Positions 7,042-58,068 are shown, numbered from the stretch's first letter. The stretch is DNA of 64,000 nt from Bdellovibrionia bacterium (GCA_030427805.1 JAUICP010000002.1:248001-312000); one strand, 5' to 3'. A program made the numbers and translations. The notes: a model not told the origin generated them from the letters alone.

Positions 7042-7053
7042 AATTCGTTCCTA

Positions 7054-20089: not shown

Positions 20090-20090
20090 C

Positions 20091-20828: not shown

Positions 20829-20845
20829 GATTCCCCCAAGAAACT

Positions 20846-26361: not shown

Positions 26362-27783
26362 TTAGAAATACTTTTTCCGCTTACTCGAAGGTAAGATCTT
26401 TAGGACATCTCTATATTTTGCAACGGTTCTCCGAGCAATCTGAATCCCTTCTTTCTTGAGCAAATCAACAATCTTTTGATCAGAAAGCGGGGATTTTGGA
26501 TTTTCCTCGGCGATCAACTGTTTGATCTTCAGCTTAACCGATTCACTCGCCAAAGAGTCACCATTTGACTTAGAAATACCAGAATTAAAAAAGTATTTTA
26601 ACTCAAATATTCCCCTTGGAGAGTGCATATACTTCGCGGTAGTTACGCGACTCACGGTCGATTCGTGCATTCCAATGTCATTGGCAATATCTCTTAAAAT
26701 CATTGGCTTGATAAAGGCGGGGCCTTTTTCAAAAAAGTCTTTTTGATGTTTAACGATACTTTCCGTCACCTTATAAATGGTTCTTTGTCTTTGGTGAATT
26801 GACTTAATCAACCAAACTGCCGAACGAAGTTTCTCCTGAATATACTCCTGAGTTGAGTTATTTTGCTGTCCAGCCTTAAGAACATTTTTATAAAAATTCG
26901 AAATTCTCAAGCGTGGAAGCCCATCTTCGTTCAACGAAACCATGTACTCGTCACCAACTTTATAGACATAAACATCGGGAGTAACATAGTGAGTATCATT
27001 ACTCATAAAAGCACGACCCGGCTTCGGATCCATACTATAAATAATTTTACACATTTCGATGACGTCTTCGAGATCGACGCTCATCGCTTTTGCAATACCT
27101 TCGTAATTTTTCTTTTCGAGATCTTTCAGATGATTTGAAATCAGAGTTACGAGATCATTCGTATCTTCTTGAAGGTGTTTCGCTTGCACGAGAAGACATT
27201 CCTTCAAGTTTCTCGCACAAACTCCTGGTGGATCGAACTCTTGCAGAAAAGGAACAATCTCTTCGAGTTCTTTGGCTTCAATACCCTCGTCATCGGCTAC
27301 TTTTTCGATATCAACTTTTAAATACCCATCGTCATCCACATAGGAAATGAGTATGTTCGCTAAAGCGAGTTCCTCTTCGTTAAAACCATACATTTGCGCT
27401 TGCCAAGTGAGGTGATCGTGAAGAGTTTCGGTCGTAGAAATCACATTTTCATAATTCATGATCTCTTCATTACCGGAGCCACCGCTTTGGGCTGGCTTAT
27501 AATTATTATCGACGTAGTTCTCCCAGTCGAATTCATCTTGTTTTTGTGGATCCTGATCGTTTGACGATTGCTCTTGGCTTTGGGCTCCATCTGCCTCTTG
27601 GCTCGCCTCTGAATTAGGTAACTCAAGTCCCTCTTCAAGAATTGGGTTTTCTTCGAGTTCTTTTCTAACTGCGGTTTCGAGTTCTAAGCGAGAAAGCTGC
27701 AGGAGCTTAATAGCTTGCTGTAGCTGAGGGGTCATCCTCAACGACTGCCTTAACTCCATACTCTGTTTCATCTGGATCGCCAT
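26362..27783 (-). CDS. rpoN: RNA polymerase sigma-54 factor
   Basis: A 473-aa sigma factor recognising -24/-12 promoters. Region I is glutamine/leucine-rich (RMTPQLQQAIKLLQLSRLEL), region II is acidic (about 60-110), the core-binding domain and HTH follow, and the RpoN box ARRTVAKYR is near residue 450. The order lptC/A-lptB-rpoN matches the standard proteobacterial locus. The gene starts 8 nt after lptB. An FHA-type activator and candidate -24/-12 sites are found elsewhere in the window. Confidence 0.98.
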   Translation of the reverse strand: MAIQMKQSMELRQSLRMTPQLQQAIKLLQLSRLELETAVRKELEENPILEEGLELPNSEASQEADGAQSQEQSSNDQDPQKQDEFDWENYVDNNYKPAQSGGSGNEEIMNYENVISTTETLHDHLTWQAQMYGFNEEELALANILISYVDDDGYLKVDIEKVADDEGIEAKELEEIVPFLQEFDPPGVCARNLKECLLVQAKHLQEDTNDLVTLISNHLKDLEKKNYEGIAKAMSVDLEDVIEMCKIIYSMDPKPGRAFMSNDTHYVTPDVYVYKVGDEYMVSLNEDGLPRLRISNFYKNVLKAGQQNNSTQEYIQEKLRSAVWLIKSIHQRQRTIYKVTESIVKHQKDFFEKGPAFIKPMILRDIANDIGMHESTVSRVTTAKYMHSPRGIFELKYFFNSGISKSNGDSLASESVKLKIKQLIAEENPKSPLSDQKIVDLLKKEGIQIARRTVAKYRDVLKILPSSKRKKYF

Positions 27784-27791
27784 TCGACCTC

Positions 27792-28517
27792 CTAATTCAG
27801 CTGAAAGTTTTCACCGAGGTAAAACTTCCGAGCCGTTTCTGAATTGGCAATTTCTTCAGGCGTACCTTTTACCTGAACTTGCCCTTCCTTTAATATATAT
27901 CCAAAATCACAAATCCCTAAGGTTTCTCTTACGTTGTGATCTGTAATTAGAATACCTATACCTTTGTCTTTAAGACCGAGTATCATTTGCTGGATGTCTC
28001 CGACCGCGATCGGGTCAATCCCGGCAAAAGGTTCATCTAAGAGGAGGAATTTGGGGTCTCCAGCCAAAGATCTGGCAATTTCTACCCTCCGTCTTTCTCC
28101 TCCAGAGAGAGCATAGCCGTAGCTATCTCTTATGTGTCCGAGGTTAAATTCATTGAGTAGTGTTTCAAGACGCTCCATCTTAGAGGCTCCCACAACACCA
28201 TGGGCCTCCAAAGCAACCAGAATATTTTCTCGAACAGTTAGCTTGCGAAAAATTGATGCTTCTTGCGGCAAATAACTCAATCCGGTTCGAGCTCTCTGAA
28301 ACATCGGAAAGTCAGTAATCGACTGACCATTAAGAATTATATCTCCCTCATCGGGATTAATCAGTCCAACCACCATATAGAAACTCGTAGTTTTACCGGC
28401 TCCATTAGGACCCAATAAACCTATGACTTGCCCCGAATGGACTTCAATAGAGACTTTCTTGACGACTTGCCTCTTTTTAAAAGACTTTGAAATGTCACTT
28501 ACAATCAATTCACTCAA
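27792..28517 (-). CDS. lptB: LPS export ABC transporter ATP-binding protein LptB
   Basis: A 241-aa ATPase powering lipopolysaccharide transport from the inner to the outer membrane. Walker A GPNGAGKT is at residues 36-43, the ABC signature LSGGERRR begins at 137, and Walker B LLLDEP at 158-163. It lies between the lptC-lptA fusion (14-nt gap) and rpoN, the conserved arrangement. Confidence 0.97.
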
Positions 28518-28531
28518 TTCTAAAACCTTAT

Positions 28532-29503
28532 CTATTCTTCTTCGGGTTCAAATTTGGCTCGAGCATTTTCAACTCGCACCTTCTTTCCACCTTCGAGAAA
28601 TACTATTTTATCGCCTCGAAGTTCATCATTGTCTTGGACGACTCTCGGCTGACCTTGCAATACATATCGTTCATCAGCAAAAAAAACGCTCAGCTTATCA
28701 GACGTTGCCCACTTGTCTAAATCAGTCACGCGAGCTCCACCTTCAACGACCATCGATTCAATTATATCCGATCCCTTGCGATATTTAAATTCAGCCCTGG
28801 GACCCGTTATTCTCATCGAATCATAATCAATGACAACATTACCTATGAATCGAGCCGTTTTCTTTTCATTATTAAATCGGGCCTTTTTACTCTTGATCCT
28901 AACAACGTGATCCTTCTTAACAACTTTTTGAGCACTGACATCCTCACCAATCAAAATAGTGTTCGTCTTTAGGTCCGCCACAAGGTTTCTACCTGTTAAA
29001 ATGAGTCGGTCACCATTAACATCTTTGGGACCTTTCATCTTAATATTATCCGGGCTCTCTAACTGCTTCGCTTCTGAGTTGTAGACCACCTCTTCCGATT
29101 CAAAGCTAAAACCACTGGTTGACTGGGTTAGGACCTTACCTTGGACCTTCATCTTTTTCTGGTCCTCAGAAACTTGCCCTGAATTTCCAGTCACCGTGTA
29201 TTCAACTTTTTGGACACCGTAGAATTTGCTTTTAACATCTTCTAGCTGCCAAAGACTTTGAGAGCTCGTTTGATCAGCACGATCCGCCCAGAGCTCCCAA
29301 TCGATACTCTCGCCTTTAGCCTCGACAACATGAATTCCTTGGACGATCTTTTTGGTTTGATCACCAATTTCTTCAATGGAATTATTGTTTAAATTTGAAT
29401 CAGAGCGTCCGTCGAGTCCAATTTCTTTAGGTGCAAACACAATGATCTCAAATACAAGAAGTCCAAAAAGCAAAAGTAATAATATTAAGCTCTTACGACC
29501 CAT
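28532..29503 (-). CDS. Fused LptC-LptA LPS transport bridge protein
   Basis: A 323-aa protein with one N-terminal membrane anchor (about residues 5-23), an LptC-like beta-jellyroll domain (about 50-165, with 'WELWADRA' and '[17 protein letters not shown]') and a C-terminal LptA/OstA-like domain (about 170-320, with '[23 protein letters not shown]' split across two strands and '[11 protein letters not shown]'). In E. coli LptC and LptA are separate proteins forming the periplasmic bridge; here one gene upstream of lptB appears to supply both. No separate lptA is seen next to it. Confidence 0.8.
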
Positions 29504-29726: not shown

Positions 29727-30437
29727 GTGGAAAAGGTCTGGTTTCTTTATATTCAAAACACTGTTTTCGGTCCGTTTACAACGGACGAGGTGAAAGCCCG
29801 CTTGAGCCAAGGGGTTCCTGAGAATAGCTTTGCGTGGTGGAAGGGCCAAACCGAGTGGATCCCCGCAGCTGATTTTGAAGAGGTATTACCCAGGTTCCTT
29901 AACTCCCAAAATGAACAAAAAAATAATCGAGAAATGTGGACGTTTAAAAAAGATGGAGAGACTTTTGGTCCTTTTGAACTTTTAGAAGTCGTCGATATCC
30001 TGCGAAACCAAATGGCTTTTCTCGATAATATTCTGATTCGATCAAGTTTCGACACTGAATGGAAAAAAGTCTTTCTGTGGCAAGAAATCACCGACTTGCT
30101 GGGGATCTCTCGAAGAATTAACGAGCGTGTTCCGCTTATGGGGACCGTGAAGGTTTCTCTTGGTGACAATGTCTTTTCTGTTGGGAGAACAACCACTGTT
30201 AGTGTTGGCGGAATAGGTATTAAAGATGTCAAACTCGATACTCGAGTCGGTCAAATTATCTTATTAGAGATTAAGAGTCCGGACCTAACCGACATTGTTC
30301 GGGTTCAGGCTGAGATCAGATATAAGGCCCAAGATGGTATGCTTGGAGTGGTCTTTGAGAACCCCTCAGCCGAGGCACAATCTGTAATAATCGATTATAT
30401 TAAGAAGTTCAAAAATGGAATCGAAAGAGCCGCCTAG
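29727..30437 (+). CDS. GYF-like (DUF4339) and PilZ domain protein
   Basis: A 236-aa soluble protein with two N-terminal GYF_2-like repeats (about residues 3-55, WFLYIQNTVFGPFTTDEVKA; and about 70-125, WTFKKDGETFGPFELLEVVD) followed by a PilZ domain (about 128-230). The PilZ part has an RRINERVPL start that supplies an R-x3-R-like motif and VSVGGIGIKDV in place of DxSxxG. It probably links c-di-GMP to a protein partner bound by the GYF domains. The start is GTG. It faces the Glt/Agl-like operon, overlapping its last stop codon by 4 nt. Confidence 0.78.
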   Translation: MEKVWFLYIQNTVFGPFTTDEVKARLSQGVPENSFAWWKGQTEWIPAADFEEVLPRFLNSQNEQKNNREMWTFKKDGETFGPFELLEVVDILRNQMAFLDNILIRSSFDTEWKKVFLWQEITDLLGISRRINERVPLMGTVKVSLGDNVFSVGRTTTVSVGGIGIKDVKLDTRVGQIILLEIKSPDLTDIVRVQAEIRYKAQDGMLGVVFENPSAEAQSVIIDYIKKFKNGIERAA

Positions 30438-31015
30438 TTTTTATCCTCGGGGCGCTCAACAACCGCAAAATTTATCTCCGAAGCACCTGCCTCAGTCACC
30501 GTAAAAAGAACTTTTTTAACTGTCAAAAAATCTAAACTTTTACTTGCTTGAACGGTCACCCGACTGACTTCTATCTCTTTTTCTTTTAAAGCTTCGTTAA
30601 AGACATCTTCGTTCGTCACCGTTTGCTGAATTTTTAAACGGAGGTTTTCTTGAACCTTACGCTTCTCAAGCTCGATAACCGTTTGCAGCTGATTATAAAG
30701 ATTTTCAATAAGCCACTCTTCTTGATCCTGAACTCGCTGTAAATAATCAACTGGTTCATCATTAATCAAAACTTGATCATCTGTAATGACAACAACATTT
30801 GATGGTCGTAGTTTTTTGGTCGCCTGAGCTTCTGGAAGAGCTACTTTTTGTGTAATCTGAATTTCGTCGGTATTATAGTTCTGTAGAAGAAAAACCACGA
30901 GAACTGTAAACATGTCGACCATCGCAGTCAAAGAAAGGTGAGCAACAATAGTCCTTGCCGTATTATTCTTAGGCCGATTATGTCGATCTCTAATTCCTGG
31001 TACGAATATCGCCAT
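30434..31015 (-). CDS. ExbD/TolR-family proton-channel subunit (AglS-like)
   Basis: A 193-aa bitopic protein. One membrane segment (about residues 30-46, AMVDMFTVLVVFLLQ) carries the conserved proton-relaying aspartate D34, followed by a periplasmic domain of about 145 residues. With the preceding ExbD-like and ExbB-like proteins it forms an H+-driven motor of the TolQR/ExbBD/MotAB type; in Myxococcus the equivalents AglQ and AglS drive gliding. It is the last gene of the operon and overlaps the neighbouring ExbD by 1 nt. Confidence 0.85.
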   Translation of the reverse strand: MAIFVPGIRDRHNRPKNNTARTIVAHLSLTAMVDMFTVLVVFLLQNYNTDEIQITQKVALPEAQATKKLRPSNVVVITDDQVLINDEPVDYLQRVQDQEEWLIENLYNQLQTVIELEKRKVQENLRLKIQQTVTNEDVFNEALKEKEIEVSRVTVQASKSLDFLTVKKVLFTVTEAGASEINFAVVERPEDKN

Positions 31016-31488
31016 TACTGGGCCCCGCCTGTTGCAACTGAAATACTCGGAAATCCAGCCTGAATCAAAAGGTCCATGCCGTTGATTAACTTTTCATAAA
31101 AAATGTCATCTTCCATTGTAATCACTGCATCGAGTTTCTCGGGATATTTCTCTTTGATTTGTTGAAGCCGAGCTAACAAAGTCTCATCGTCAAATAAACC
31201 AGCTTGCTTCGGTACTTCGAGAGTTTCTTTTCCGATTATTATTCGATAGCCAGCATTTTTGACATCAAGACGAAATGGAAGGTCAGCCAAAGGAGGAGGT
31301 TCAACTGGCTCTTCACTCGTTTGCTTACCGTAGAGGGAACTTCCAATTTGAATCATCGAAACCTGGGTCCACACAGCTGTAATGAGTAGAAAAGTAATCA
31401 AGACACTCATCAAGTCGATAAATGGAACAAGGTTCAATTCAAAGTTTGGATTTCTAGATCCACCACCACCGGTGTCAATACTTGCCAA
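31015..31488 (-). CDS. ExbD/TolR-family proton-channel subunit (AglQ-like)
   Basis: A 157-aa bitopic protein with the membrane segment at about residues 20-42 and the conserved aspartate D25 in NLVPFIDLMSVL, followed by a periplasmic ExbD-type domain ending 'LIQAGFPSISVATGG'. It follows the ExbB-like gene by 3 nt. Two different ExbD-like genes next to one ExbB-like gene is the AglR-AglQ-AglS arrangement of the gliding motor. Confidence 0.88.
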   Translation of the reverse strand: MASIDTGGGGSRNPNFELNLVPFIDLMSVLITFLLITAVWTQVSMIQIGSSLYGKQTSEEPVEPPPLADLPFRLDVKNAGYRIIIGKETLEVPKQAGLFDDETLLARLQQIKEKYPEKLDAVITMEDDIFYEKLINGMDLLIQAGFPSISVATGGAQ

Positions 31489-31491
31489 GGT

Positions 31492-32175
31492 TTATCCTAA
31501 CTTCAGTTTATCTCTATTTGCAGTTACTAAGTTCATCATGCTCATGCTGCTCTCTTGCATATCATTGATCAATCGAGAAACACGAATCTGAAAATATCCA
31601 AAGAACAAAATGGCGATGAGGGCAACGATCAATCCAAAGGCCGTACAGTTGAGTGCTTCCGAAATACCCTGCGATAACTTTTGGGCCTTCTCGGCATCAT
31701 CAGCGGCTGACACCCCTTTAAAGGAGGTGATCATACCAATAATTGTTCCCGTCAATCCTGTTAATGTTGCTAGGTTACCAAAGACGGCAAGAAATCCCGT
31801 CCAACCTTCGACTCTGGGAGACTCCCTAAGCACCGATGCATCCATCGCAACCTGAACCTCTTCATCGGGGCGGTTGTTCATCACTTGAACAAGGCCAGCC
31901 TTCAACGTGTTCGTTAATGGTGCTGGTTTTGAATCACAAAATGCGATTGATTGCTGAACATCGCCCCTTAAAATCATTCCAAAAAGATGTTCATTAAAAT
32001 CATGCTTATCGATCGACATAGACTTTAAAGTAAGAAATCGTTCGAGTACCAACAGTATCGTTAAAATACCGATGGCGGCGATGAAGAACATGACCACTCC
32101 ACCTTCTGCAAAGGCGGTCATTACAAAGTTCATCTCTTCTGCTGCTGCGGCCGCTTGGGCTACATCTGGTTCCAC
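31492..32175 (-). CDS. MotA/TolQ/ExbB-family proton-channel subunit (AglR-like)
   Basis: A 227-aa inner-membrane protein with three membrane segments (about 28-48, 123-146 and 175-198) and the family motif LATLTGLTGTIIGMITSF and 'ALNCTAFGLIVALIAIL'. The start is a GTG with AGGAGG at 4-5 nt. It should assemble with the two ExbD-like proteins into a proton-driven stator. It lies 15 nt after the FHA-TonB-like gene. Confidence 0.9.
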   Translation of the reverse strand: MEPDVAQAAAAAEEMNFVMTAFAEGGVVMFFIAAIGILTILLVLERFLTLKSMSIDKHDFNEHLFGMILRGDVQQSIAFCDSKPAPLTNTLKAGLVQVMNNRPDEEVQVAMDASVLRESPRVEGWTGFLAVFGNLATLTGLTGTIIGMITSFKGVSAADDAEKAQKLSQGISEALNCTAFGLIVALIAILFFGYFQIRVSRLINDMQESSMSMMNLVTANRDKLKLG

Positions 32176-32190
32176 AACTCCTCCTTGTGT

Positions 32191-34341
32191 CTATCGCGAT
32201 GTAAATAGGAATGGATAAACAATTGTTACTACCTCATTCCTTGGTGGTTCTGGAAATCTCCACGTCTTCAAATTACTGATCACACACTTAGCAAGATCCT
32301 TCGAATCAGCAATTGTCGATTTATCGGGTCTCGGCTTTGCCCTTAGGACTCTACCTTGTTCTCCAATATCCCACTCGAGAACTAATTTACCAAACAAACT
32401 TGGGTTCCTATTTAATTCTCTCTCATAACAAAGTTTAATGGAACGACTATTGTTCAACACCACTCTTCGTATTGCTTCTCTATCTATTGTCCCACGAAAT
32501 TCTTCTTCTTCACCACCTGGAACAATTTTTACCGACTTTCGTCCGCCAGTGCCTAATCCACTATCACCAAAATTTGCTCGGCCTCCAGCTCGTCCTTTTG
32601 TCTGAACCCCTGAAATACCAATATTTGACTGTCCTCTTCCACCAGACCCAGTATCTTTGAATCGTGTGCCTAATTCTTCACCAGCTCTATCTTCATTCTG
32701 ACCGGCACTTCCTGTTGCCTTATCTGCAAAACCAGCGAGTTCACCAGCACCTGTGTAAGCCTTATCAATATTCTTCTTACGACCACCGCCGCCGAAGACA
32801 CTAAAAATACCTGATTTTGTAACATCTTTTGTCTGACTTTTTGCTTGAGCACCCTTTTTAGGCCCCGTCTTCTTTGCTCCACCTTTTTTAATAGAGGTGA
32901 CTCCAGGGTTTTTCTTGCGATTAAAGCTACGTGCAGATCGACCCGACCTTCGCTTTGCCGCTGGTTTTGGCGACTCCGCTTTTTTGATAGCCCTTCTATT
33001 TGGCTTTGGTACCGGCGTCGCTTTTGTTTGCGCCAACTTCGGAACTGGCGTTGGCGTCGCTTTAGGCGGTGTATTTTGAAAATCGATCTTTGGTGCTGGT
33101 GTTGGCTTCGGCTTCTTGACCTGATCTGTGATGATCAAGGCCGTACGAATGACTGGAGGCTCATCCTCCTTATTAAGACCTTCACCAGGAGTATACAAGA
33201 AATTATAAAGAGCAATGACTACAGACAAAATTACCGAAAGAACGACAGCCAAAAACTCTGATCCAGTAAGGTCAAAGAATGGGGCCGCCATTGGTCTAGG
33301 CGTGTGCGATACGTAACGCACAATTATAGAAATATCATCGGTAAGATTAATTTTAACCATCTCACCTTGTTCGAGATTGATGATATAGTTTTTGCCCTTC
33401 TTATTAAGGCGGTTTTGACGAATCAGTTCATCAAAAAAGGTCGATGTATTCCCTTTTATGAGCTCGCCATTGATATTTTCAGGCACATTGATAATAGCCA
33501 TTGAGTCTATTTTTAGGAGAGCAAACTTTCTATTAATCAATGGAAAGTGAATATCAGCGTTAGTTTGTGGGCCAACAGTTACAGTTTTCTTTTCTGAAAA
33601 ATGACTCGTGCTAATTACACGTTCTTTCCATGCAACTAGAACCTCAACTACCGTTCCCTTTGAAGGCTTAACAAACTCTTTGACATTATTATAGCTACTC
33701 GGAGGAGCATACGTGGGTTCACTTTTTTGATGGCTTTTATAGGCCCTAGCCCGCTGAATACTCTGTTGTGCACTCAATTTTGACCGTGGATCCACCAAAT
33801 CTTTTAGGGCATCTTGCGCAGTGATGACCTCGTCAGAAGGGGCCTCAATGGAACTCAAATTAACAGTACGGGTTGGTTCATTGTCGAGTGGTACATCTTT
33901 TTCAACTTGGATCCCAGCATTGATACTTGGGTTTGTGTCATCATTTCCAGGGTAGGGTTCTTCTTTTGACGAGGGCATCGAAGAAGGCAATTGAATGGCT
34001 GGATTTGTCCCGCCCGTTTTCGGTGGAGCCATTTTTGGCTTCGGAACTCCCTCGTAAAATTCCAAGGTATAAGAACCTATCTTTACGACATCACCATGCT
34101 CTAACTTTTCATCGAGAATTGGAGCTCCGTTACGAAAAGTTCCCGACTCGGAGCCGAGATCAAAAATAAAATAGCTTTGGTCCCGCTTTTCGATCGCGGC
34201 ATGAATTGGCGAAACACCTTCTTCAAGTGACAACTGAACATCAGCTTCTGGGCGACCAATAACAATTTGTTCTTCAGTAAACTGCTTTACTGAAACAAGT
34301 TGTCCCGATTTATATATGCGCAGAACAATTGGTCGGCTCAA
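32191..34341 (-). CDS. FHA-domain, TonB-like AgmX/PglI-type protein (GltG-like)
   Basis: A 716-aa inner-membrane protein. Residues 1-100 form an FHA phosphothreonine-binding domain (VIGRPEADVQL, SPIHAAI, LGSESGTFRNG). A second, weaker FHA-like region is at about 230-345, one membrane segment at 361-383, then a Pro/Lys and Gly-rich periplasmic stretch (about 390-610) and a C-terminal domain (about 615-716, 'NNSRSIKLCYERELNRNP' and WRFPEPP) of the AgmX/PglI type, analogous to TonB. This layout matches GltG/PglI of the Myxococcus gliding complex: the cytoplasmic FHA end senses a regulator, the periplasmic end reaches to the outer membrane. Confidence 0.85.
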   Translation of the reverse strand: MSRPIVLRIYKSGQLVSVKQFTEEQIVIGRPEADVQLSLEEGVSPIHAAIEKRDQSYFIFDLGSESGTFRNGAPILDEKLEHGDVVKIGSYTLEFYEGVPKPKMAPPKTGGTNPAIQLPSSMPSSKEEPYPGNDDTNPSINAGIQVEKDVPLDNEPTRTVNLSSIEAPSDEVITAQDALKDLVDPRSKLSAQQSIQRARAYKSHQKSEPTYAPPSSYNNVKEFVKPSKGTVVEVLVAWKERVISTSHFSEKKTVTVGPQTNADIHFPLINRKFALLKIDSMAIINVPENINGELIKGNTSTFFDELIRQNRLNKKGKNYIINLEQGEMVKINLTDDISIIVRYVSHTPRPMAAPFFDLTGSEFLAVVLSVILSVVIALYNFLYTPGEGLNKEDEPPVIRTALIITDQVKKPKPTPAPKIDFQNTPPKATPTPVPKLAQTKATPVPKPNRRAIKKAESPKPAAKRRSGRSARSFNRKKNPGVTSIKKGGAKKTGPKKGAQAKSQTKDVTKSGIFSVFGGGGRKKNIDKAYTGAGELAGFADKATGSAGQNEDRAGEELGTRFKDTGSGGRGQSNIGISGVQTKGRAGGRANFGDSGLGTGGRKSVKIVPGGEEEEFRGTIDREAIRRVVLNNSRSIKLCYERELNRNPSLFGKLVLEWDIGEQGRVLRAKPRPDKSTIADSKDLAKCVISNLKTWRFPEPPRNEVVTIVYPFLFTSR

Positions 34342-34628
34342 TCTCCACTTCCCTTTCGCTGAATCTCTTGTGCTGTCTTTCTCAATTCAGGGAGAAAATT
34401 GTTTCTTAATCGAATTAATCGTTCATAGTTAAATTGTTTCTGCTGGAGCAAAATAACTAACTCAGGCTTTTTAGTCTTACCTTCAACTAATTGATCTTCA
34501 AAATTTATTATGTTTCTTTTGGATTCGTCAGATTCACCATCTTCTTGTGCCCATGCAGAAACACCTATTAATGATACACAAAGAAAAAATACTTGGGCTA
34601 TTAAAAAATTGAGTTTTAAAGGCTTCAT
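34338..34628 (-). CDS. Small secreted protein, CglF-like
   Basis: A 96-aa protein with a signal peptide (residues 1-27, ending AWA-QE) and a short mature part with 'INFEDQLVEGKTKKPEL' and 'FNYERLIRLRNNFLPEL', a pattern I associate with the CglF adventurous-gliding proteins. That match is from memory and not certain. It overlaps the FHA gene by 4 nt and follows the TPR lipoprotein by 9 nt, so it is part of the operon. Confidence 0.65.
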   Translation of the reverse strand: MKPLKLNFLIAQVFFLCVSLIGVSAWAQEDGESDESKRNIINFEDQLVEGKTKKPELVILLQQKQFNYERLIRLRNNFLPELRKTAQEIQRKGSGD

Positions 34629-34637
34629 TTGACCTAC

Positions 34638-35516
34638 CTACTTCTTTTCTTTCTTCTGAGCTACTCTTTTTAATTCAATAACCTTCTTCTTTTGATCATT
34701 AGAAGCTACACCCAGAAGTTCAAGACGATTGATAACAGTTAGGCCTTCTTGATATTCTCCTAGTTCTTCAATGAGGAGGATGGCGTAGTTGAGTAAAAGA
34801 TTGGCCGACTTATTATTTTTTGACAAAGCTGAAACAATGATATCTTTTGCTTCTTTCAGTTTACCTGCCCCACGAAGGGCTACAGCATAATTTGCAGCTG
34901 CCTTTACACTTGTTTTACGTTTCTTATAGGCATTTTCCAATAATGGCAGGGCCTTAAGGAAGTCACTGTAAAATACATAAACACTTCCCAAATTGAGACA
35001 AACATAGAAATTGTCACTATCGATTCTATAGGCCTGTTTGAGGAGTGTTAATCCCGCAGAAAGGTTCCCCTGCTGCAGCTCAATCAGTGCTTTATTATTA
35101 AGCACACCAACAAATTTAGGATTCATCTTAAGAGCAAGGTCGTAGAAGTATTGAGCGGCTACCCAAGCTCCTTTTTGCATATGGTAGGTGCCCAGTGCAT
35201 TCATAGCGAGTCCGTCTTTTGGATTGGAGCCGAGAATATTTTGAGCTTCGCGCTTCACCGACTCCAAGGAATTCGATTTAATCGCACGAACTAACTGACT
35301 GTATTTAGGGTCGACTTCATCAACATCCTTAGAGACCTGATCTTTTGGGTCGACTTTATACTTCTCTTCTTCTGGCTCAGGCTTTGACTTTTCTTCGCCT
35401 GTTGCCGCAGCTTCAGTTTTTTGCTCGTTTTCTGAGGAGGATGAAGATTTATCTGAACTAGAAGCACAAGCTTGAATAAAAAGGGCCGTCAGAATGAGAA
35501 GAAAAATCCTCATCAT
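34638..35516 (-). CDS. TPR lipoprotein (GltE/AglT-like)
   Basis: A 292-aa protein with a lipoprotein signal (ALFIQAC17, followed by ASS), a charged linker (about 20-75) and five or six tetratricopeptide repeats (about 75-270), for example NALGTYHMQKGAWVAAQYFY and CLNLGSVYVFYSDFLKALPL. A TPR lipoprotein next to a large TPR protein and an FHA-TonB-like gene matches GltE. It is likely anchored in the outer membrane. Start overlaps the stop of the large TPR gene by 4 nt. Confidence 0.85.
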   Translation of the reverse strand: MMRIFLLILTALFIQACASSSDKSSSSSENEQKTEAAATGEEKSKPEPEEEKYKVDPKDQVSKDVDEVDPKYSQLVRAIKSNSLESVKREAQNILGSNPKDGLAMNALGTYHMQKGAWVAAQYFYDLALKMNPKFVGVLNNKALIELQQGNLSAGLTLLKQAYRIDSDNFYVCLNLGSVYVFYSDFLKALPLLENAYKKRKTSVKAAANYAVALRGAGKLKEAKDIIVSALSKNNKSANLLLNYAILLIEELGEYQEGLTVINRLELLGVASNDQKKKVIELKRVAQKKEKK

Positions 35517-38500
35517 TTTAAACCTCCCCAGCTCATCGTATCAGCTTCGTAGACAGATTCTTCTAATTTAAATTTTTGTTGAGAGTTATAGCGCGCGGCT
35601 CCCCTTTGAGCGACTCCAGTCCATGGCCCGTAGGCTTCAAGTTCCAGTGATCGCTCATAAGCTTTCTTAAAAAGATCACTTGCTACATTCTGCATTTCCT
35701 TAGCTTTACTCGTGTACAATTGTTTAAACTGCGCTTTTTGCTCAGGAGCATTGTAACCTTTCGGCACTGGAGCCTTAGCCCAGCGAAGAGCTATAATCTC
35801 TCGAGCTTGAGCCGATGAAGTGAGCGCCGCAACGATAAAGGGGCCATAATTATAGGCAATAACACCCTTCATTCTCTCGTCCAACTGATTAGCCAACTGG
35901 TCCAGCTTTAAAAAGGCAGCCTGGATGGACTTGTCGGTGTTCCCGATTTTCACTTTTCGCATTTCAGAGAGTTTAGAGAGTGCCAGGATAAATCGTGCCT
36001 CGGCAGCAAACTTGACTCCCACTGGGTTCCCGCGATTTTTGAAGTATTCAAAGGTTCCGCGAGTCTTCTCATACCATTTTGCAGCCTTAGAAACCTTTCC
36101 CATTCTTTGAGAAATATCGGCAACTCGGTATACGGACTTCATCAACTTAAATGCATCCGGTGGACTATTAGCTACATAGCGTTCGTAATAGCGCATTGCT
36201 GAATTCAAGTTATTGCGACGATACTCCATTTCAGCAAACTGATATTCAATATCCTTAGCTTCATTCTTCGAGATATAATTCTTATATTCACCATAGACTC
36301 GTTTAGCATTACCAAAGTCATTTAATGAATTATAGATCAGTGCCGCATTATTCAATGCCAGTTTCTTCTTAACTTTGTTGCTTTCATTCTTTGCAACAAC
36401 TTCGTATTGTCGCGCCGCTTTTGCTAATAGACCTGAGTTTCTGAACAAGTCCGCTAAGTTACTTCTGGCTTCCTTTTGCAGAGCTAGAGTCTTTTTATTA
36501 CTTGTTCGAACTTGTGCGAATCTGGAATACATTCGAATAGCGTTAGGTGTATCGCCCGCCTTTTGATAATTCAAAGCCGAGTTATAAATGGCATCAATCG
36601 AACTCGGATTCTTAGGATTCTCTTTGACAAATTTTTCAAAATTCTCCGCACTCGCCTTATACTTCCTGCCTTTTGAAAGGTTATCCGCGATCATCAAAGC
36701 CGCTTGACTCAAGTTCGCCTGAATATCGGCACCTACTTTTGAGTTTGCGATAGAAGGTACTGCGAGTAAGTCCTGGGCTGTCTTCTGAAACCCAGGTATA
36801 TCATCTTTTAGTTTATAAATATCGAGAGTTAATTCCGCAGCAATCATCGTATCTTTGCTCTTTGGGTATCTTTTTACCAATTCTCCGAAAATAACTAGAG
36901 CTTCATCAAAGTGGTTGTAGGCATAATAAAGAACCCCCACGCGTCTAAGCACCTCAGGAACTTTGTCACCATCCGGAAATTCTCTAGAGTATTTCTTTGC
37001 AGCCTCTATAAAGGCTTTAGAATTGGCATCCATTTCAAATTTTTCAGTCTTCTTGCCAAGCTGCTTTCGCTTTTCGTCGATCTGGGCTGCTGTCGGAAGT
37101 TGTTTTTCTAAAGCCAGAACATTGTTAATGACTGAAGCCTGGTAGAACTCGGACTTCTTGTCGTTATTGCTAAAATACCATTGATACTGGTCGGAGGCTT
37201 TGGCGTACTGTCCTTGATCAAAAAGAAGTTCAGCGTAGAAAAACCTCATTTGCGGATAATACTTAGATTTCTCGAAGAAGTTTAAGTATATCTCATAACT
37301 TCTCGAAGCTAACTTTTGAGAAAACTTAGCTCGCGAATTTTGCGCCGTTTGGTGTAATTGAAGAGTCTTATTACGCAAAGTTGACTCTTGAAGATTATAG
37401 GTATCTTGAACCAACTGCTCGTTTCCAGAATTCTTTTTAGCCCATTCACTCTTGGGACCAAATTCGTTAATCCAATCGTAGAGTTGGTTTTTATACTGAT
37501 CTTCATTATTTGAATTCGAATATATTTGAACAATTTGATACTTGTAGTCAGCCGACTTCTCACCCATCGGGTTTTTATCGATCAAACGCTGGAACAAATA
37601 ACGGGCGCCAGGGCGGTTTCCACTATCGGCGTAAATATAAGCTAAACCTTCAAGCATCTTGGTAACAAGGCTCGGCTTTCTCGCAACCTTAGTAAAATCT
37701 CTCTCAGCTCTTTTATACAATTCAGAAGAGGCTTTAGCTTCAGCATAAAAAGGAACATAGTCCTTGAGAGCCTCACTCACAAGTCGAATTTTATTGACCG
37801 CACGAGTTCCTGCAACTGCCTGTTCTGTCGCACTTTTTCGGCCGACCCGAATCACTTTTTCAAGCGTTTTAATAGCCGTTTCGACTCGACCCATTCTGTA
37901 AAGACACCATGCCGCTTTATAGAGTGCGAAACTATATAGTCTTGCTCGCTTTCTCTTTATGACTTTATTAAATTGGACCAGAGCCGGTCGCCACTTATCA
38001 TTTTCGAAATAATATTCGCCAAGTGCAAAATGGGATTCACTGACGTATGCACTTCGCGGATATTTGGTTGTTAGCAACTGATAATACTTTTCACCTTTAC
38101 GGGACTGCCCTACTTCAAAGTAATTGTATCCGAGAAAGAAAAGGGCCTGGTCAATTTTTGGGTCCCTTGGAAAGTCTCGAACAAACCATTCATAGAGGCG
38201 AATCGCCCTTAAGTGATAGTTTTTAGCCTCTTTGAGATTCAAACGAGGTCGACGCTTTACCTTACCTTTCTCGTAGGCTAACTGAGCTTTTTCAAATTTC
38301 TCCTGCTCTCGAAACTCAAGAATCCTTGCTTTTTCGACATAGCGTTCAGCGAGTCTTAGCCAAATTTCTCCTCGACTTTTACTGCGACGATAGGACTGAG
38401 AGAGTTTATAGTAATTGGCAATTTCCTGATCGAGAAGTCGCTCGTACTGAGCCTGAAGAGTATTGTCGTTTCGATCGTAAAAAACACTAGAGCGTGGCGG

Positions 38501-38716
38501 CTTAACCAACTTCATGTTCTTAGCTTTCACCTTTTTTTGCTTCAAAATTGCTTTTGGTAAAGCTGTACGAGAGCGAGAAAACTTTAATGAGGTCTCTTTA
38601 GATCGACGCGACTGAGCATCAACTTGATCTAAGCTGATGAGAAGCCCGAGGGCTATTAAAAATAGTATTCTCGCAAATCGAGAGATACTACTGCCTACAA
38701 GATCCAAGGCCAACAT
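35513..38716 (-). CDS. Large periplasmic TPR protein (GltD/AgmU-like)
   Basis: A 1067-aa secreted protein built almost entirely of TPR/YfgC-like helical repeats, for example 'AYVSESHFALGEYYFENDKW', 'VLRRVGVLYYAYNHFDEALV' and 'RMYSRFAQVRTSN'. I choose the ATG at 38716 because GGGGA lies 9 nt upstream and it gives a good signal peptide ending VDAQ; a longer frame starts at 38779 but would overlap the preceding gene by 92 nt. Myxococcus AgmU (GltD) is a similar >1000-aa periplasmic TPR protein in the same gene context. It probably forms a periplasmic scaffold. Confidence 0.82.
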   Translation of the reverse strand: MLALDLVGSSISRFARILFLIALGLLISLDQVDAQSRRSKETSLKFSRSRTALPKAILKQKKVKAKNMKLVKPPRSSVFYDRNDNTLQAQYERLLDQEIANYYKLSQSYRRSKSRGEIWLRLAERYVEKARILEFREQEKFEKAQLAYEKGKVKRRPRLNLKEAKNYHLRAIRLYEWFVRDFPRDPKIDQALFFLGYNYFEVGQSRKGEKYYQLLTTKYPRSAYVSESHFALGEYYFENDKWRPALVQFNKVIKRKRARLYSFALYKAAWCLYRMGRVETAIKTLEKVIRVGRKSATEQAVAGTRAVNKIRLVSEALKDYVPFYAEAKASSELYKRAERDFTKVARKPSLVTKMLEGLAYIYADSGNRPGARYLFQRLIDKNPMGEKSADYKYQIVQIYSNSNNEDQYKNQLYDWINEFGPKSEWAKKNSGNEQLVQDTYNLQESTLRNKTLQLHQTAQNSRAKFSQKLASRSYEIYLNFFEKSKYYPQMRFFYAELLFDQGQYAKASDQYQWYFSNNDKKSEFYQASVINNVLALEKQLPTAAQIDEKRKQLGKKTEKFEMDANSKAFIEAAKKYSREFPDGDKVPEVLRRVGVLYYAYNHFDEALVIFGELVKRYPKSKDTMIAAELTLDIYKLKDDIPGFQKTAQDLLAVPSIANSKVGADIQANLSQAALMIADNLSKGRKYKASAENFEKFVKENPKNPSSIDAIYNSALNYQKAGDTPNAIRMYSRFAQVRTSNKKTLALQKEARSNLADLFRNSGLLAKAARQYEVVAKNESNKVKKKLALNNAALIYNSLNDFGNAKRVYGEYKNYISKNEAKDIEYQFAEMEYRRNNLNSAMRYYERYVANSPPDAFKLMKSVYRVADISQRMGKVSKAAKWYEKTRGTFEYFKNRGNPVGVKFAAEARFILALSKLSEMRKVKIGNTDKSIQAAFLKLDQLANQLDERMKGVIAYNYGPFIVAALTSSAQAREIIALRWAKAPVPKGYNAPEQKAQFKQLYTSKAKEMQNVASDLFKKAYERSLELEAYGPWTGVAQRGAARYNSQQKFKLEESVYEADTMSWGGLK

Positions 38717-40328
38717 AATGATAGTTCCCCAATTCATCGAGCCAGTATTCACCTTCAAACGGCCAATACTCATATCCATTATCTACATAAAAATCTCTAT
38801 CAGAATCTTCATCTACCTTCTTGTCAGGCAGACCTCTTCCAGCGATTTGCTTCTTTACTAATTCTTTTTGTCCACTCACCTGTTCAAGGCGCAAAAAGTC
38901 GTTCTGCTCGCTCAGGTCACGGAGTTCAGAACGAATTTCACTAAGTCTTCTCTTTACGAGTCTTCCCGTAATACTTTGAGTGGACACCTGACGACGTTGC
39001 AAAGCTTTAATTGCAAATTGGCCAATTCCAGATCGACGCCACGATTGAGGAAGACCTGCAACAAGCTCTAGTTCGTCTCCGATTTTATTCAAGTAATTAA
39101 TACTCTGAATAATATCTCCATCTCGTAAAACTTCCCTTCCAATAATGTATGGAAGTCGAGACTTCTGACTTTTTATGCCTTTTTTACGATTATCAAAGTC
39201 GATTTTAATGCGAGCGAGCTCTCGGAGGTATGCTTCGGATGAGTCATTGTCTCGCACATAATCTATCACTCGACGGCGAACAGGATTGTAAATTCTGTTA
39301 AAAATGTTGAGGACCTTCGCCATTTCATCCCATTTACAGATGTAAAGGTATACAATTCCTCGTAAAACCAGTGATTCAGGTAAATAGTAATCTTCGTAGT
39401 AAGAGGAATGAAGAGTGTGAAAGTTACTCAAAGCGGACCTAAATTGTCCGCTTTGAAGCATTGCCCAGCTTCTTTCAAATAAACTATCATGCCATTGAAC
39501 GGTATCTCGTGGTATTTCTCGGTAAAGCTCAATGGCTCGAGCGAAGTCCTTTTTCTGATAGAAAACTCGCGCTTGACCCAGAACTGCATTGACGCGATTG
39601 GGGTCGGTAACACCATCTCCGGCACTATGCTGTTCAAGATCTTCAAACGCAGAAATTGCACGCTCCGCCCGATTCATTTCGGCATAGGCTAGCCCCTGTC
39701 GATACTTCGCGATTGGAAAGAATGAACTCGTTGATCGCACGCGACCAAAAATCTTGGCTGCATCTGCAAACTTACCAGCCTTTAATTGCACCTCACCCAA
39801 TCGAAAGTAAAATAAATCTTTCTGAACACGAGGGAAATCTCGGACCTCGATTTTCGATATGGCGAACTTCAAAAGAACATCGTTGTCTAATATATTAGTA
39901 ATTAGAGACAATTTTTCGAGAGCCTTGCGAATATATTTTCTGCTAGTTCCAGATCGTCGAGCTTCTCTTTTAATCACGTCGTAAAAGAAAAATGCAGAAA
40001 CCTGGTAGAGCTTCATTTGCAGAGTTAGCTGTCCGAGGATGTACTTAATCTCAGTATATTTTGAGCGAAAGGCTCGACTCTTCGACATTCTATAGTAGAG
40101 CTTAGAGGCCTCATCATATTGACCAGCATCCGCCAAACTTGCAGCCCTCTTTAAGAGAGCCGCATTAGTACGATTCATTGAAGAGCCTCGTCGTCGTCGT
40201 CTCGCCACGTACACCGATGAATCTTCTGCAGACTTCACAATGTCATTCAGCTTAAGATCTTGAACTGAATATCCTTCATTCGGTATGACCAAAAAAGATA
40301 GAATAAGAAATGCGATTAATAGTCTCAT
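38688..40328 (-). CDS. Periplasmic TPR protein (GltC-like)
   Basis: A 546-aa secreted protein with a signal peptide (MRLLIAFLILSFLVIP at the N-terminus) and TPR-type repeats over about residues 60-350 (AGQYDEASKLYYRM; AGKFADAAKIFGRV; 'KDFARAIELYREIP'), then a charged helical C-terminal part. I use the ATG at 40328, which overlaps the stop of the beta-barrel gene as ATGA; a TTG-started frame to 40436 would overlap by 112 nt. It may correspond to GltC, the TPR protein that works with GltE and GltD, but the assignment rests on order and repeat type. Confidence 0.78.
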   Translation of the reverse strand: MRLLIAFLILSFLVIPNEGYSVQDLKLNDIVKSAEDSSVYVARRRRRGSSMNRTNAALLKRAASLADAGQYDEASKLYYRMSKSRAFRSKYTEIKYILGQLTLQMKLYQVSAFFFYDVIKREARRSGTSRKYIRKALEKLSLITNILDNDVLLKFAISKIEVRDFPRVQKDLFYFRLGEVQLKAGKFADAAKIFGRVRSTSSFFPIAKYRQGLAYAEMNRAERAISAFEDLEQHSAGDGVTDPNRVNAVLGQARVFYQKKDFARAIELYREIPRDTVQWHDSLFERSWAMLQSGQFRSALSNFHTLHSSYYEDYYLPESLVLRGIVYLYICKWDEMAKVLNIFNRIYNPVRRRVIDYVRDNDSSEAYLRELARIKIDFDNRKKGIKSQKSRLPYIIGREVLRDGDIIQSINYLNKIGDELELVAGLPQSWRRSGIGQFAIKALQRRQVSTQSITGRLVKRRLSEIRSELRDLSEQNDFLRLEQVSGQKELVKKQIAGRGLPDKKVDEDSDRDFYVDNGYEYWPFEGEYWLDELGNYHYVGLGSCRQ

Positions 40329-41161
40329 CGGTACTTCGCCTCCGGAAAGAAGAAGCTCGCGCCAATCGTTATAAACAAGTTGTCGGTTAACTCGTCTTTT
40401 CCTGAAACTGATGATTTTGTTGTATAAAAATTCCAACTGAAATCCCAGCGTAAGGCAAAAGACTTAGATATCGCGAAAATCTGTCCAGTACCAAGATGTA
40501 TCGTCATAGGTGACTGACCTTCTTGGTTCGTCTCGGTTATACCTAGCCCTGCTGAAAAATAGAGATCAAAAGGAATAATTTTTTCATCGAGAAAGCTATA
40601 TTTTCCGTAAATGGGAGACCACTTGACATCAACTCCATAGAACATTTCCGGAGTAATGAGACTGTCTGTTAGAACACCTTTTTGGACCTTTAAATCCTCT
40701 GTGACCGAACGTTTTTCTGTTCCCAGGTACATGAGAATTCCTTCGAGACTCCACTTTTCAGTAATGTAATAACCAGCACGTCCGACCAATCCAATATTGA
40801 AAAAGAAAGCATCATTAAGGTTTGTAGATCCACCACCAAAAAATTCAAATCTTCCAGTCTTTGGTAAAAACCTTTTTTGAATAATCGCCACATCATTAAA
40901 TGGAGCAAGCCGTACAAGTCCACCAAGATCCTTTATCTTTTCTTGACTAGCTTTATCTTGTGTACGACTACTTTCTTTTTTTCTTCGATCTGATTCGTTA
41001 CGTTTCGCTTCTTGATTGAACAAGGCTTCGATATCATCTGATACTTCATCTTCTGCTTGAGCATGAACTGATTTAGAATGAGAAAAAACTACTAAAAAAA
41101 TTGTTAGCAGTAACAAAATGAATCGAGTTTTTATAATTGTTACCAAATAAATATAGCTCAA
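40325..41161 (-). CDS. Outer-membrane beta-barrel protein (gliding-cluster type)
   Basis: A 278-aa protein with a signal peptide (about residues 10-35, ending VHAQA), a charged coiled linker (about 40-80) and an eight-stranded barrel-like C-terminal region with alternating patterns such as RFEFFGGGSTNLNDAFFFNI and a terminal 'TIGASFFFPEAKYR'. The VIIQKRF...KTGRFEF...GLVGRAGYYITEKW pattern resembles the outer-membrane barrel family common next to Myxococcus and Bdellovibrio gliding genes (CglE/GltA-B type). The start is a TTG with GGAG about 8 nt upstream. Confidence 0.75.
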   Translation of the reverse strand: MSYIYLVTIIKTRFILLLLTIFLVVFSHSKSVHAQAEDEVSDDIEALFNQEAKRNESDRRKKESSRTQDKASQEKIKDLGGLVRLAPFNDVAIIQKRFLPKTGRFEFFGGGSTNLNDAFFFNIGLVGRAGYYITEKWSLEGILMYLGTEKRSVTEDLKVQKGVLTDSLITPEMFYGVDVKWSPIYGKYSFLDEKIIPFDLYFSAGLGITETNQEGQSPMTIHLGTGQIFAISKSFALRWDFSWNFYTTKSSVSGKDELTDNLFITIGASFFFPEAKYR

Positions 41162-41273
41162 GACAGAACTCCTACTTTACTCTAAGATACAGAAAAGATT
41201 AGGAAACTTGTAGGTTTACTAATCAATCTAGACTTTCAGATCCTAAGAAAAGATTTGGGAGTATGGCCAAAAG

Positions 41274-42005
41274 TTAGAGCTGAAAAACGAGTCCGACGCT
41301 TAATAAAGTTTCGAAGAATATTTTTTCATTAAAGGCGTCTGCTGGAAGTCTCTCGGTAGCATTCTCTAAAGAAGATGGGACTTTTTCATCCAAAACGTTT
41401 GGACCTTGGTATAAGAGGCCCCGTAAATCAAAGCGAATAGCGAACTTAGAAGTGAGGTAGAACTTTTGTCCCAAGCCGGCATTGACCACCGGTAATGTGC
41501 TGCCTGTGTAACTAAAAAGACCTCCCCCTGCAAAAAAGTAGAGACTCAATTGCATTACCAAGTCTTTCGTCACACTCATTTTTCCGTAGTGAGTCGTAAA
41601 CTGGTAATTGGCAGTTAGAATATATTCTGGCACCGGGGCTTGCGCCAAATTAATTGCGAAGAACTGATCGAGATCCTCGGCATAGGTGGACTGACCCTCC
41701 ATAAAAAAACTACCCCAAAGATTGAGCGCACTCGATTCAGTAAATGAATACGAAATCGTCCCACCAAAGCTAAGAGGTGAGTAGAAGGGTTCATTGAGGT
41801 TAAATCCTGAAAAAATTCCGAACTCAAACGAATCTTTGAGATTAACGATGCGGTCTTTTACAACCGGCGCTCCGTCAAAAACCGGAAGAACACTCTCTTT
41901 TGAAAGTTCCTCTTTAGGCAAGTAGACTTTGGCCGAGGCCCAATGTGTCACTGTTAACAGCACTATAGTTAATAGTTTATTGAAATTACTTAGACTTAAA
42001 GTCAC
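41274..42005 (-). CDS. Outer-membrane beta-barrel protein, second copy type
   Basis: A 243-aa protein with a signal peptide (about residues 8-25, ending ASA-KV) and a barrel-like domain parallel to the next gene's (FEFGIFSGFNLNEPFYSPLSFGG; 'GLGQKFYLTSKFAIRFDLRG'; C-terminal SVGLVFQL ending in the hydrophobic residue expected of BAM substrates). The two proteins share the layout but little sequence. It overlaps kdsC by 4 nt at its start and is 112 nt before the other barrel gene, so it could belong to either unit. Confidence 0.72.
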   Translation of the reverse strand: MTLSLSNFNKLLTIVLLTVTHWASAKVYLPKEELSKESVLPVFDGAPVVKDRIVNLKDSFEFGIFSGFNLNEPFYSPLSFGGTISYSFTESSALNLWGSFFMEGQSTYAEDLDQFFAINLAQAPVPEYILTANYQFTTHYGKMSVTKDLVMQLSLYFFAGGGLFSYTGSTLPVVNAGLGQKFYLTSKFAIRFDLRGLLYQGPNVLDEKVPSSLENATERLPADAFNEKIFFETLLSVGLVFQL

Positions 42006-42526
42006 GAAAGCCCCCTGCCTGCCCCTTGAGCATAGGCACCATACTGAATGATGAGCTCACAAAATTCACGAACTGCACCGAGTCCACCCGGGCATTGAGT
42101 TGTATAGCTCGCAACTTGTTTAACTGGAGCTACCGCATCGGGAACAGTTGCTCCGAATCCAACTTCAGCAATAATAGGAGCGTCGGGGAGGTCATCACCT
42201 ATGTAGGCGATTTCTCGATTCTCTAAGCCTGTTTTCTCTTTCAAGTCTTTAAAGGCAGGGCCTTTGTCTCCCTTGCCTTCAAAAAAGTAATCAATCTTGA
42301 GATGCTTTGCCCGGGATCGAACATCCTCCGAATGGGCACCAGTTATAATTGCGGTTAAGTATCCCTGCTCCCTCAGTCGAACAATACCGATACCATCACG
42401 CACCGAAAACATACGTTTCCACTCACCCGCTGAATCCATGAATATTTGTGCATTGGTCATGACGCCATCGACATCGAATACAACTAATTTTACAGGTGCA
42501 ATTTTAGGCGCTAAAGACTCCATCAC
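42002..42526 (-). CDS. kdsC: Kdo 8-phosphate phosphatase (HAD family)
   Basis: A 174-aa C0-type HAD phosphatase releasing Kdo from Kdo-8-phosphate for lipid A/core synthesis. The nucleophile motif is FDVDGVMT with D18 and D20; motif II is IITGAHS, motif III and IV are in KGDKGPAF and YIGDDLPD. Length matches KdsC (~170-188 aa). kdsD lies 100 nt upstream and kdsB is in the same cluster; kdsA is not in the window. Confidence 0.93.
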   Translation of the reverse strand: MMESLAPKIAPVKLVVFDVDGVMTNAQIFMDSAGEWKRMFSVRDGIGIVRLREQGYLTAIITGAHSEDVRSRAKHLKIDYFFEGKGDKGPAFKDLKEKTGLENREIAYIGDDLPDAPIIAEVGFGATVPDAVAPVKQVASYTTQCPGGLGAVREFCELIIQYGAYAQGAGRGLS

Positions 42527-42626: not shown

Positions 42627-43607
42627 TTATCGAATTTGCGCTGCGAGAAGATCTTGAAGGTGAAGAAGTCCAGTCGGACGAGACGTTTCTTCTTTTGAAC
42701 TTCCATCGACAACAAATAGAGTTTGAATCTTAAATTGCTCCATAACAAACAAGGCCTTTTCTGCAAGTTCCTCACTACTAATGGTCTTAGGATGTTTTGA
42801 CATGATATCGTGGGCTTTCTGTGTCGTTAAATCGATCTTTTTCTCTATACTTCGACGAATATCGCCATCAGTAATAACGCCTATCAAGCCGCCCGCATTA
42901 TCAACAACTCCAGCAACCCCCCTAACCTCTTTACCGGTCATCACACTGACGACATCAAGAATCTGGGTATCTAAAGATACCAATGGCAAGGCCTCACCTT
43001 GGTGCATGACATCTTTGACTCTCGTGAGAAGCCTTCTCCCAAGACTTCCACCAGGATGGAACTCAGCAAAATCCTCTTCTTGAAAACCCTTGAACTTCAA
43101 TGTTGCCATGGCTAATGCATCGGCCATGGCAAGACTGGCCGTAGAACTTGTGGTGGGCGCTAAGCCAAGTGGACAGGCTTCTTCTGAAACCTTAACACTG
43201 ATAAGGGTATTACATTCCTTTGCCAAGCGGCTCTCTAGGTTGCCCGTCATACCGATGAGAGGAATACCCTTTCGGGCACAATGGCTGAGTATCGGAACTA
43301 ATTCATCTGAGCCACCACCATAACTAATAACAATCACCAAATCATTAGAACTTAAAACTCCTAAATCACCATGGGAGCTCTCGGCTGGATGTAAAAAAAC
43401 TGAAGGTGTGCCCGTTGAACTCAATGTCGCAGACATTTTTCGCCCGATGTGGCCCGATTTGCCCATTCCGGCTACGACAACTTTTCCCTTACATTCTGCA
43501 ATTTGATGAACGGCTTTTTCAAAGGATTCTCCGATACTATCGATCAGCTCGATAATACCTTCGGATTCCATTTTTAAAACTCGCTTTGCTTCTTGAACTA
43601 AATCCAT
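42627..43607 (-). CDS. kdsD: Arabinose-5-phosphate isomerase
   Basis: A 326-aa enzyme converting ribulose-5-phosphate to arabinose-5-phosphate, the first step toward Kdo. An N-terminal SIS sugar-isomerase domain (GMGKSGHIGRKMSATLSSTG, about residues 47-66; 'HGDLGVLSSNDLVIVISYGG' following) is joined to two CBS domains (about 205-320). The pattern 'EACPLGLAPTTSSTASLAMAD' is diagnostic. It follows pyrG by 1 nt. Confidence 0.95.
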   Translation of the reverse strand: MDLVQEAKRVLKMESEGIIELIDSIGESFEKAVHQIAECKGKVVVAGMGKSGHIGRKMSATLSSTGTPSVFLHPAESSHGDLGVLSSNDLVIVISYGGGSDELVPILSHCARKGIPLIGMTGNLESRLAKECNTLISVKVSEEACPLGLAPTTSSTASLAMADALAMATLKFKGFQEEDFAEFHPGGSLGRRLLTRVKDVMHQGEALPLVSLDTQILDVVSVMTGKEVRGVAGVVDNAGGLIGVITDGDIRRSIEKKIDLTTQKAHDIMSKHPKTISSEELAEKALFVMEQFKIQTLFVVDGSSKEETSRPTGLLHLQDLLAAQIR

Positions 43608-43608
43608 T

Positions 43609-46236
<2,628 letters not shown>

Positions 46237-46240
<4 letters not shown>

Positions 46241-58033: not shown

Positions 58034-58068
58034 TTTAGAACTCAACCTTTAAAGCCGATATAAAAGGT

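Follow-up and report, generated by a model that had tools for sequence, protein, structure and literature searches.

The gliding genes of Myxococcus xanthus are split over three loci, G1, G2 and M1 (PMC3169522). Four agl operons are described for Bdellovibrio bacteriovorus, among them Bd0828-Bd0838 (PMC2797640); the AglRQS proteins of Bd0828-Bd0838 were reported to be the closest to AglRQS of M. xanthus, and GltH, GltI, GltJ and GltK to be absent from Bdellovibrio (PMC3169522). In a 2026 review (PMC13104615), the gliding motor of Bdellovibrio is still described as unidentified. Here we describe a ten-gene Glt/Agl operon in an uncultured relative, from a 64,000-nucleotide stretch of Bdellovibrionia bacterium DNA (GCA_030427805.1, JAUICP010000002.1:248001-312000), below called the window; positions are counted from its first letter. 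The system is the already known Bdellovibrio-type Glt/Agl motor operon. With a probability of about three in four, we regard it as the core Glt/Agl trans-envelope motor of the Bdellovibrionia, orthologous to Bd0828-Bd0838 and used mainly on the prey surface.

The ten open reading frames are adjacent and tightly packed on the minus strand, from the omp1 start at 42005 to the aglS stop at 30434, in the order omp1-omp2-gltC-gltD-gltE-gltF-gltG-aglR-aglQ-aglS (Table 1). The first-pass annotation had proposed such a one-strand set here, with nearly all ends overlapping. The set is real, as the frames lie at these coordinates and curated gliding models match the expected genes, and the description of the ends is roughly right: six junctions overlap (kdsC/omp1, omp2/gltC, gltC/gltD, gltD/gltE, gltF/gltG and aglQ/aglS), and the others are separated by 3-15 bases, except omp1-omp2, where the spacing is 112. 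The omp2/gltC overlap is counted from the ATG at 40328, probably the true gltC start.

Both the AglRQS motor and the Glt proteins of a Glt/Agl machine are seen. The motor consists of an AglR-type ExbB protein and two ExbD proteins, AglQ and AglS, with transmembrane (TM) aspartates. The group B core contains GltC and GltG, recognized by their models, and GltD and GltE, recognized by tetratricopeptide repeat (TPR) content, position and orthology with B. bacteriovorus HD100; the match of GltE to its own model is weak (0.002). The group A members GltA, GltB and GltF are represented by two TIGR04565 matches, the CglF model and the fold of omp1, whose AlphaFold model (pLDDT 84.5) is an eight-strand barrel with a signal peptide. 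The omp1 product is GltB-like by position, the assignment being based on gene order only. The protein earlier described as FHA-TonB-like AgmX/PglI does have the FHA domain and an AgmX/PglI tail, with the NF033768 score above the cut-off, but it is GltG/PglI and not AgmX/GltJ.

Table 1. Genes of the Glt/Agl operon and its surroundings in the window.
Feature	Position	Strand	Evidence
omp1, outer-membrane 8-strand beta-barrel, GltB-like by position	41274..42005	-	TIGR04565 3.3e-24, over cut-off
omp2, outer-membrane barrel, GltA-like by position	40325..41161	-	TIGR04565 2.5e-35, over cut-off
gltC, exported TPR protein	38688..40436	-	NF033756 2.2e-57
gltD (AgmU-like), 1088-aa TPR protein	35513..38779	-	TPR matches, position, HD100 orthology
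gltE (AglT-like), TPR lipoprotein	34638..35516	-	lipobox LFIQACASS, TPR, position, HD100 orthology
gltF/cglF, small exported protein	34338..34628	-	NF033764 3.4e-9
gltG (PglI), FHA domain, one TM segment, AgmX/PglI tail	32191..34341	-	NF033760 4.7e-71, NF033768 4.6e-27, FHA 5.6e-14
aglR, ExbB/TolQ-type motor subunit	31492..32175	-	PF01618 4.5e-28; 60% to HD100 orthologue
aglQ, ExbD-type, proton-site Asp25	31015..31488	-	PF02472 2e-15
aglS, ExbD-type, proton-site Asp34	30434..31015	-	PF02472 8e-11; Bd0838 orthologue by position
GYF-GYF-PilZ protein, convergent with aglS, candidate regulator	29727..30437	+	PF14237 1.4e-11, PF07238 8e-10
kdsC, directly upstream of omp1, 4-base overlap	42002..42526	-	TIGR01670 138 bits, over cut-off; Bd0828 equivalent
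kdsD-pyrG-kdsB, upstream context	42627..46240	-	TIGR00393, TIGR00337, TIGR00466, all over cut-off
lptC(-lptA fusion)-lptB-rpoN, downstream context	26362..29503	-	TIGR04409, TIGR04406, TIGR02395, over cut-off

The window AglR shares 60% identity with its counterpart at one HD100 locus; with every other one in either genome the identity is 38% or less. That locus has the order kdsC, omp1, omp2, gltC, D, E, F, G, aglR, Q, S, lptC, lptB, rpoN, and its eleven genes from kdsC to aglS fit Bd0828-Bd0838, with Bd0838 encoding AglS (PMC6561027). The operon is the orthologue of Bd0829-Bd0838, with kdsC equivalent to Bd0828; its ten genes follow kdsC in the same order, and its AglR has its best HD100 partner there, which places it in the Bd0828-Bd0838 group. 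The Glt/Agl assignment of the first-pass annotation holds, and the comparison with the Bdellovibrio loci that it called for points to this one. The window order equals those of M. xanthus G2 (gltB-A-C), G1 (gltD-E-F-G) and M1 (aglR-Q-S) joined end to end (M. xanthus order from PMC3169522). The operon was thus correctly seen as compact relative to the divided Myxococcus loci, but the one-operon form is ordinary in the class, and it is not new, because it has been published for B. bacteriovorus (PMC3169522, PMC2797640). The word "complete" was too strong, given that GltH, I, J and K are reported to be lacking in Bdellovibrio and that the operon has no CglB-like gene. None of these four Glt proteins is encoded in the operon; the remaining genome was not searched for each.

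Besides one partial Glt-like cluster, the host genome (4.5 Mb) contains five full ones. Among its GltC matches the window cluster is the best, with 194 bits versus 95, 55, 52 and 43. A GltC search of genome contigs yielded matches only from Bdellovibrionia relatives, the nearest named one being a metagenome-assembled genome, JAUHWN01 ("Bdellovibrionia bacterium isolate 2_bin.24"), with 98% identity.

Of the 97 genomes of the order, 96 yielded a GltC, as did the two other genomes available for the class; elsewhere in the phylum, 17 more distant matches have 25-29% identity. Nine genes were scored across 98 distinct loci, gltE being omitted because TPR cross-hits confuse it. All nine are carried by 75 loci, and the order and strand are the same in 74 of these, with an inverted omp1 in the remaining one; such conservation is far beyond chance. 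Across the whole class, a single operon is the usual arrangement. Two genomes of 1.2-1.3 Mb (L093, L094) keep the whole motor operon, with a GltG lacking the FHA domain. Since the operon is nearly universal and collinear, even in 1.2-Mb genomes, it is a core trait of the Bdellovibrionia rather than an optional motility kit. In several genera GltD and GltE seem to be joined in a single protein of about 1230-1310 aa (L068, L070, L072-L074, L076, L093, L094), which suggests that the two are in direct contact.

The membrane aspartates are invariant, D25 of AglQ in 77/77 and D34 of AglS in 76/76 sequences, as are the AglR threonines in TM2 and TM3 (76/76). TolQR and ExbBD form a proton-driven family, and by analogy with it these residues indicate that the AglRQS motor is probably proton-driven. 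The other four full clusters in the host genome (L021, L022, L023, L024) encode AglQ-type subunits in which the membrane aspartate is replaced (by A, S, G and S). The aspartate was considered as a mark of this cluster alone; this is true for the full clusters of the host genome, but two HD100 paralogues keep it.

The machine may be pictured as follows. AglR, AglQ and AglS would form a stator-type motor in the inner membrane, probably driven by protons as the conserved channel residues imply. GltG, with its FHA domain inside and the TonB-like tail in the periplasm, would be coupled to the motor across the inner membrane; GltC, D, E and F would span the periplasm, and the two GltA/GltB-like barrels would hand the force to surface adhesins encoded elsewhere. 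The main use is probably grip and movement along the prey surface during predation, while ordinary gliding may be performed either by operons of the window type or by a paralogous cluster. An MglA-like GTPase, encoded in the host genome, agrees with this scheme.

The role on prey is suggested by HD100. After transposon insertion in Bd0838, prey attachment, killing and rounding are all lost; predation also requires Bd0836 (PMC6561027). A polar effect on lptC was considered as the cause of the Bd0838 phenotype; it is less likely, because HD100 has a strong terminator-like hairpin after aglS and a promoter-like site before lptC. In the paralogous Bd1473-1483 cluster, Bd1480 (aglQ) is surface-induced (PMC9140294) and an insertion in Bd1481 (aglR) is impaired on biofilms (PMC2277423). 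Taken together, these phenotypes favour the prey-surface role and leave gliding open; gliding itself is better linked to the paralogous cluster than to Bd0828-Bd0838.

Several points weigh against a core motor serving mainly the prey surface. The NCBIfam scores for GltC, GltG and CglF are significant yet below the strict equivalog cut-offs, and M. xanthus was compared via NCBIfam models, PDB 7z3c and papers. GltH, I, J and K, reported to be absent from Bdellovibrio (PMC3169522), are all essential in M. xanthus. The operon itself contains no CglB-like adhesin; VWA/MIDAS lipoproteins, mostly CglD-like, adjoin paralogous Glt clusters and not the window one (L021:2291-3268, L022:5020-6057, L024:6153-7280, L023:14700-16412, L214:10758-11819). 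The five mutants that were complemented did not include the one in Bd0838 (PMC6561027), and the surface induction and the biofilm phenotype in HD100 belong to Bd1473-1483, not Bd0828-Bd0838 (PMC9140294, PMC2277423).

The strongest alternative, proposed by Luciano et al. and by the first-pass annotation, is that the operon truly drives gliding motility and is the main engine of the organism for it. The AglRQS proteins of Bd0828-0838, being closest to those of M. xanthus, were called the best candidate (PMC3169522), and GltA to GltG are all present together with AglRQS. However, the induced aglQ and the biofilm-impaired aglR belong to the paralogous cluster, and gliding alone would not explain why the Bd0838 mutant fails to attach in liquid. 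We consider this alternative quite possible, at somewhat less than even odds.

The second alternative comes from the position of the operon in the lipopolysaccharide (LPS) locus. Among the loci that extend far enough, 74 of 82 have genes for 3-deoxy-D-manno-octulosonate (Kdo) or pyrG just upstream of the operon, and 31 of 35 have lptC/lptB just downstream. In the sister lineage L207 the junction is closed, giving kdsC-lptC-lptB-rpoN, with KdsC confirmed by a curated model; in L203 and L212 it is also closed, and the order is pyrG, a 282-aa gene, kdsD, lptC, lptB, rpoN (all these genes except the L207 KdsC are named from profile matches, lengths and order). Thus the motor block sits at one point in the LPS locus of the class. 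This seat, observed in almost the whole class, is a new finding; our literature search on kdsC/lptC with gliding revealed no mention of the LPS setting in the papers searched. The window protein at 28532-29503 combines LptC and LptA domains.

One could therefore envisage an envelope-first machine comparable to the spore-coat machine Nfs of M. xanthus, with LPS, or a surface polymer linked to it, as the cargo. The kdsD/kdsC and lptC-lptB flanks, retained even in the 1.2-Mb genomes, the closed junction in the sister lineages and the near-universal GltC agree with it. However, a mutant with the Bd0838 insertion can grow axenically (PMC6561027), and hence the motor is not needed for LPS export; the HD100 hairpin parts aglS from lptC; and the seat is no proof of LPS function, as inherited gene order suffices. 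We consider such a machine improbable.

Finally, the possibility that an uptake system of the Tol-Pal or TonB-ExbBD type was mistaken for Glt, the outcome named in advance as a refutation, can be rejected on family scores and HD100 orthology: TolQ and ExbB are the closest solved structures to AglR, but the TolQ, ExbB and TolR models are far below their cut-offs (TolQ 75 bits versus 221, ExbB 52 versus 206), a distinct ExbB-ExbD-type pair adjoins a TonB-dependent receptor on contig C5, and the GltC, GltG and CglF models match.

The core motor may have a further partner in the GYF-GYF-PilZ protein encoded opposite aglS (AlphaFold pLDDT 87.7). The best PDB sequence match of its GYF domain is that of M. 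xanthus AgmX/GltJ, 7z3c (E 0.005 with a single sequence and 2e-6 with a profile), although few GYF_2 structures exist. The predicted fold of the PilZ part resembles PilZ structures with bound cyclic di-GMP (c-di-GMP). R130 and R134 of the RxxxR motif, S159 and G162 are invariant, while the D/N position of [D/N]xSxxG is not kept. The gene occupies the aglS-side position in 18 of 35 loci, from many families but not the Bdellovibrionaceae, and outside that family the operon usually has it on the opposite strand after aglS; in L093 and L094 it is not at the operon locus. GYF_2 genes within 4.5 kb of an Agl-type motor number 14 of 51, in 13 genomes, against 0.5 expected, the cases being non-independent due to shared ancestry. 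Such genes stand beside Agl motors at Bd1473-1483 in HD100 and at three different clusters of the host genome. Of 28 GYF-GYF-PilZ orthologues, 23 have Ala-Ala at the C terminus, compared to none of 381 AglR, AglQ, AglS, LptC and GltC proteins from the same loci; this resembles a ClpX-type tail and may be degron-like.

The linkage of GYF-PilZ to Agl motors is a new finding of context; the papers searched contained nothing on GYF with GltJ/MglA or on GYF with PilZ in Bdellovibrio. According to earlier papers, Bdellovibrio gliding is controlled by c-di-GMP enzymes, and Bd1482, a PilZ gene, has been put forward as a recipient of signals from DgcA (PMC3271064). We propose GYF-PilZ as a putative c-di-GMP-responsive stand-in for the missing GltJ: in many relatives it would replace the cytoplasmic GYF module, so that the motor would answer to c-di-GMP. 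The full version, in which the soluble protein is a recurrent motor partner in the Bdellovibrionia and a c-di-GMP-controlled clutch, perhaps proteolysed via the conserved terminal Ala-Ala, is tentative, and we think it rather unlikely. If true, the clutch and the LPS-locus seat would tie together surface force, envelope building and second-messenger control. With the linked gene, a path by which c-di-GMP could reach the motor becomes concrete and open to testing.

Elsewhere in the window, three signal peptidase I-like genes form a tandem (19361-21568), and a secretin gene with an AMIN domain belongs to a run resembling pilM-pilN-pilO-pilP-pilQ of type IV pili (4726-9983). An unusual run of AMP-ligase, KAS III-like, class II aldolase, TauD-type dioxygenase, ketopantoate reductase-like and membrane dipeptidase genes (54819-61032) is a possible small biosynthetic operon.

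The closest described system, Bd0828-Bd0838 of HD100, shares with the window the ten genes, their order, kdsC before and lptC-lptB-rpoN after, and the AglR similarity given above; it differs in having no GYF-PilZ gene between aglS and lptC and in the hairpin after aglS. The M. xanthus Agl/Glt machine has homologues of GltA-G and of AglR, Q and S in the same local order (PMC3169522), whereas the window has one operon, without GltH, I, J, K or a CglB-like gene in it. The GYF domain is carried by GltJ in M. xanthus and by the PilZ protein in the window. Both are of the GYF_2 type, but here two GYF domains and PilZ form a separate gene product with neither a TM segment nor a TonB-like tail. Bd1482, which lies at the 5' end of Bd1473-1483 and whose PilZ nature was noted earlier (PMC3271064), similarly places a GYF protein beside an Agl motor; however, that motor cluster is paralogous and Bd1482 is codirectional and upstream of aglR, while the window gene is convergent and follows aglS.

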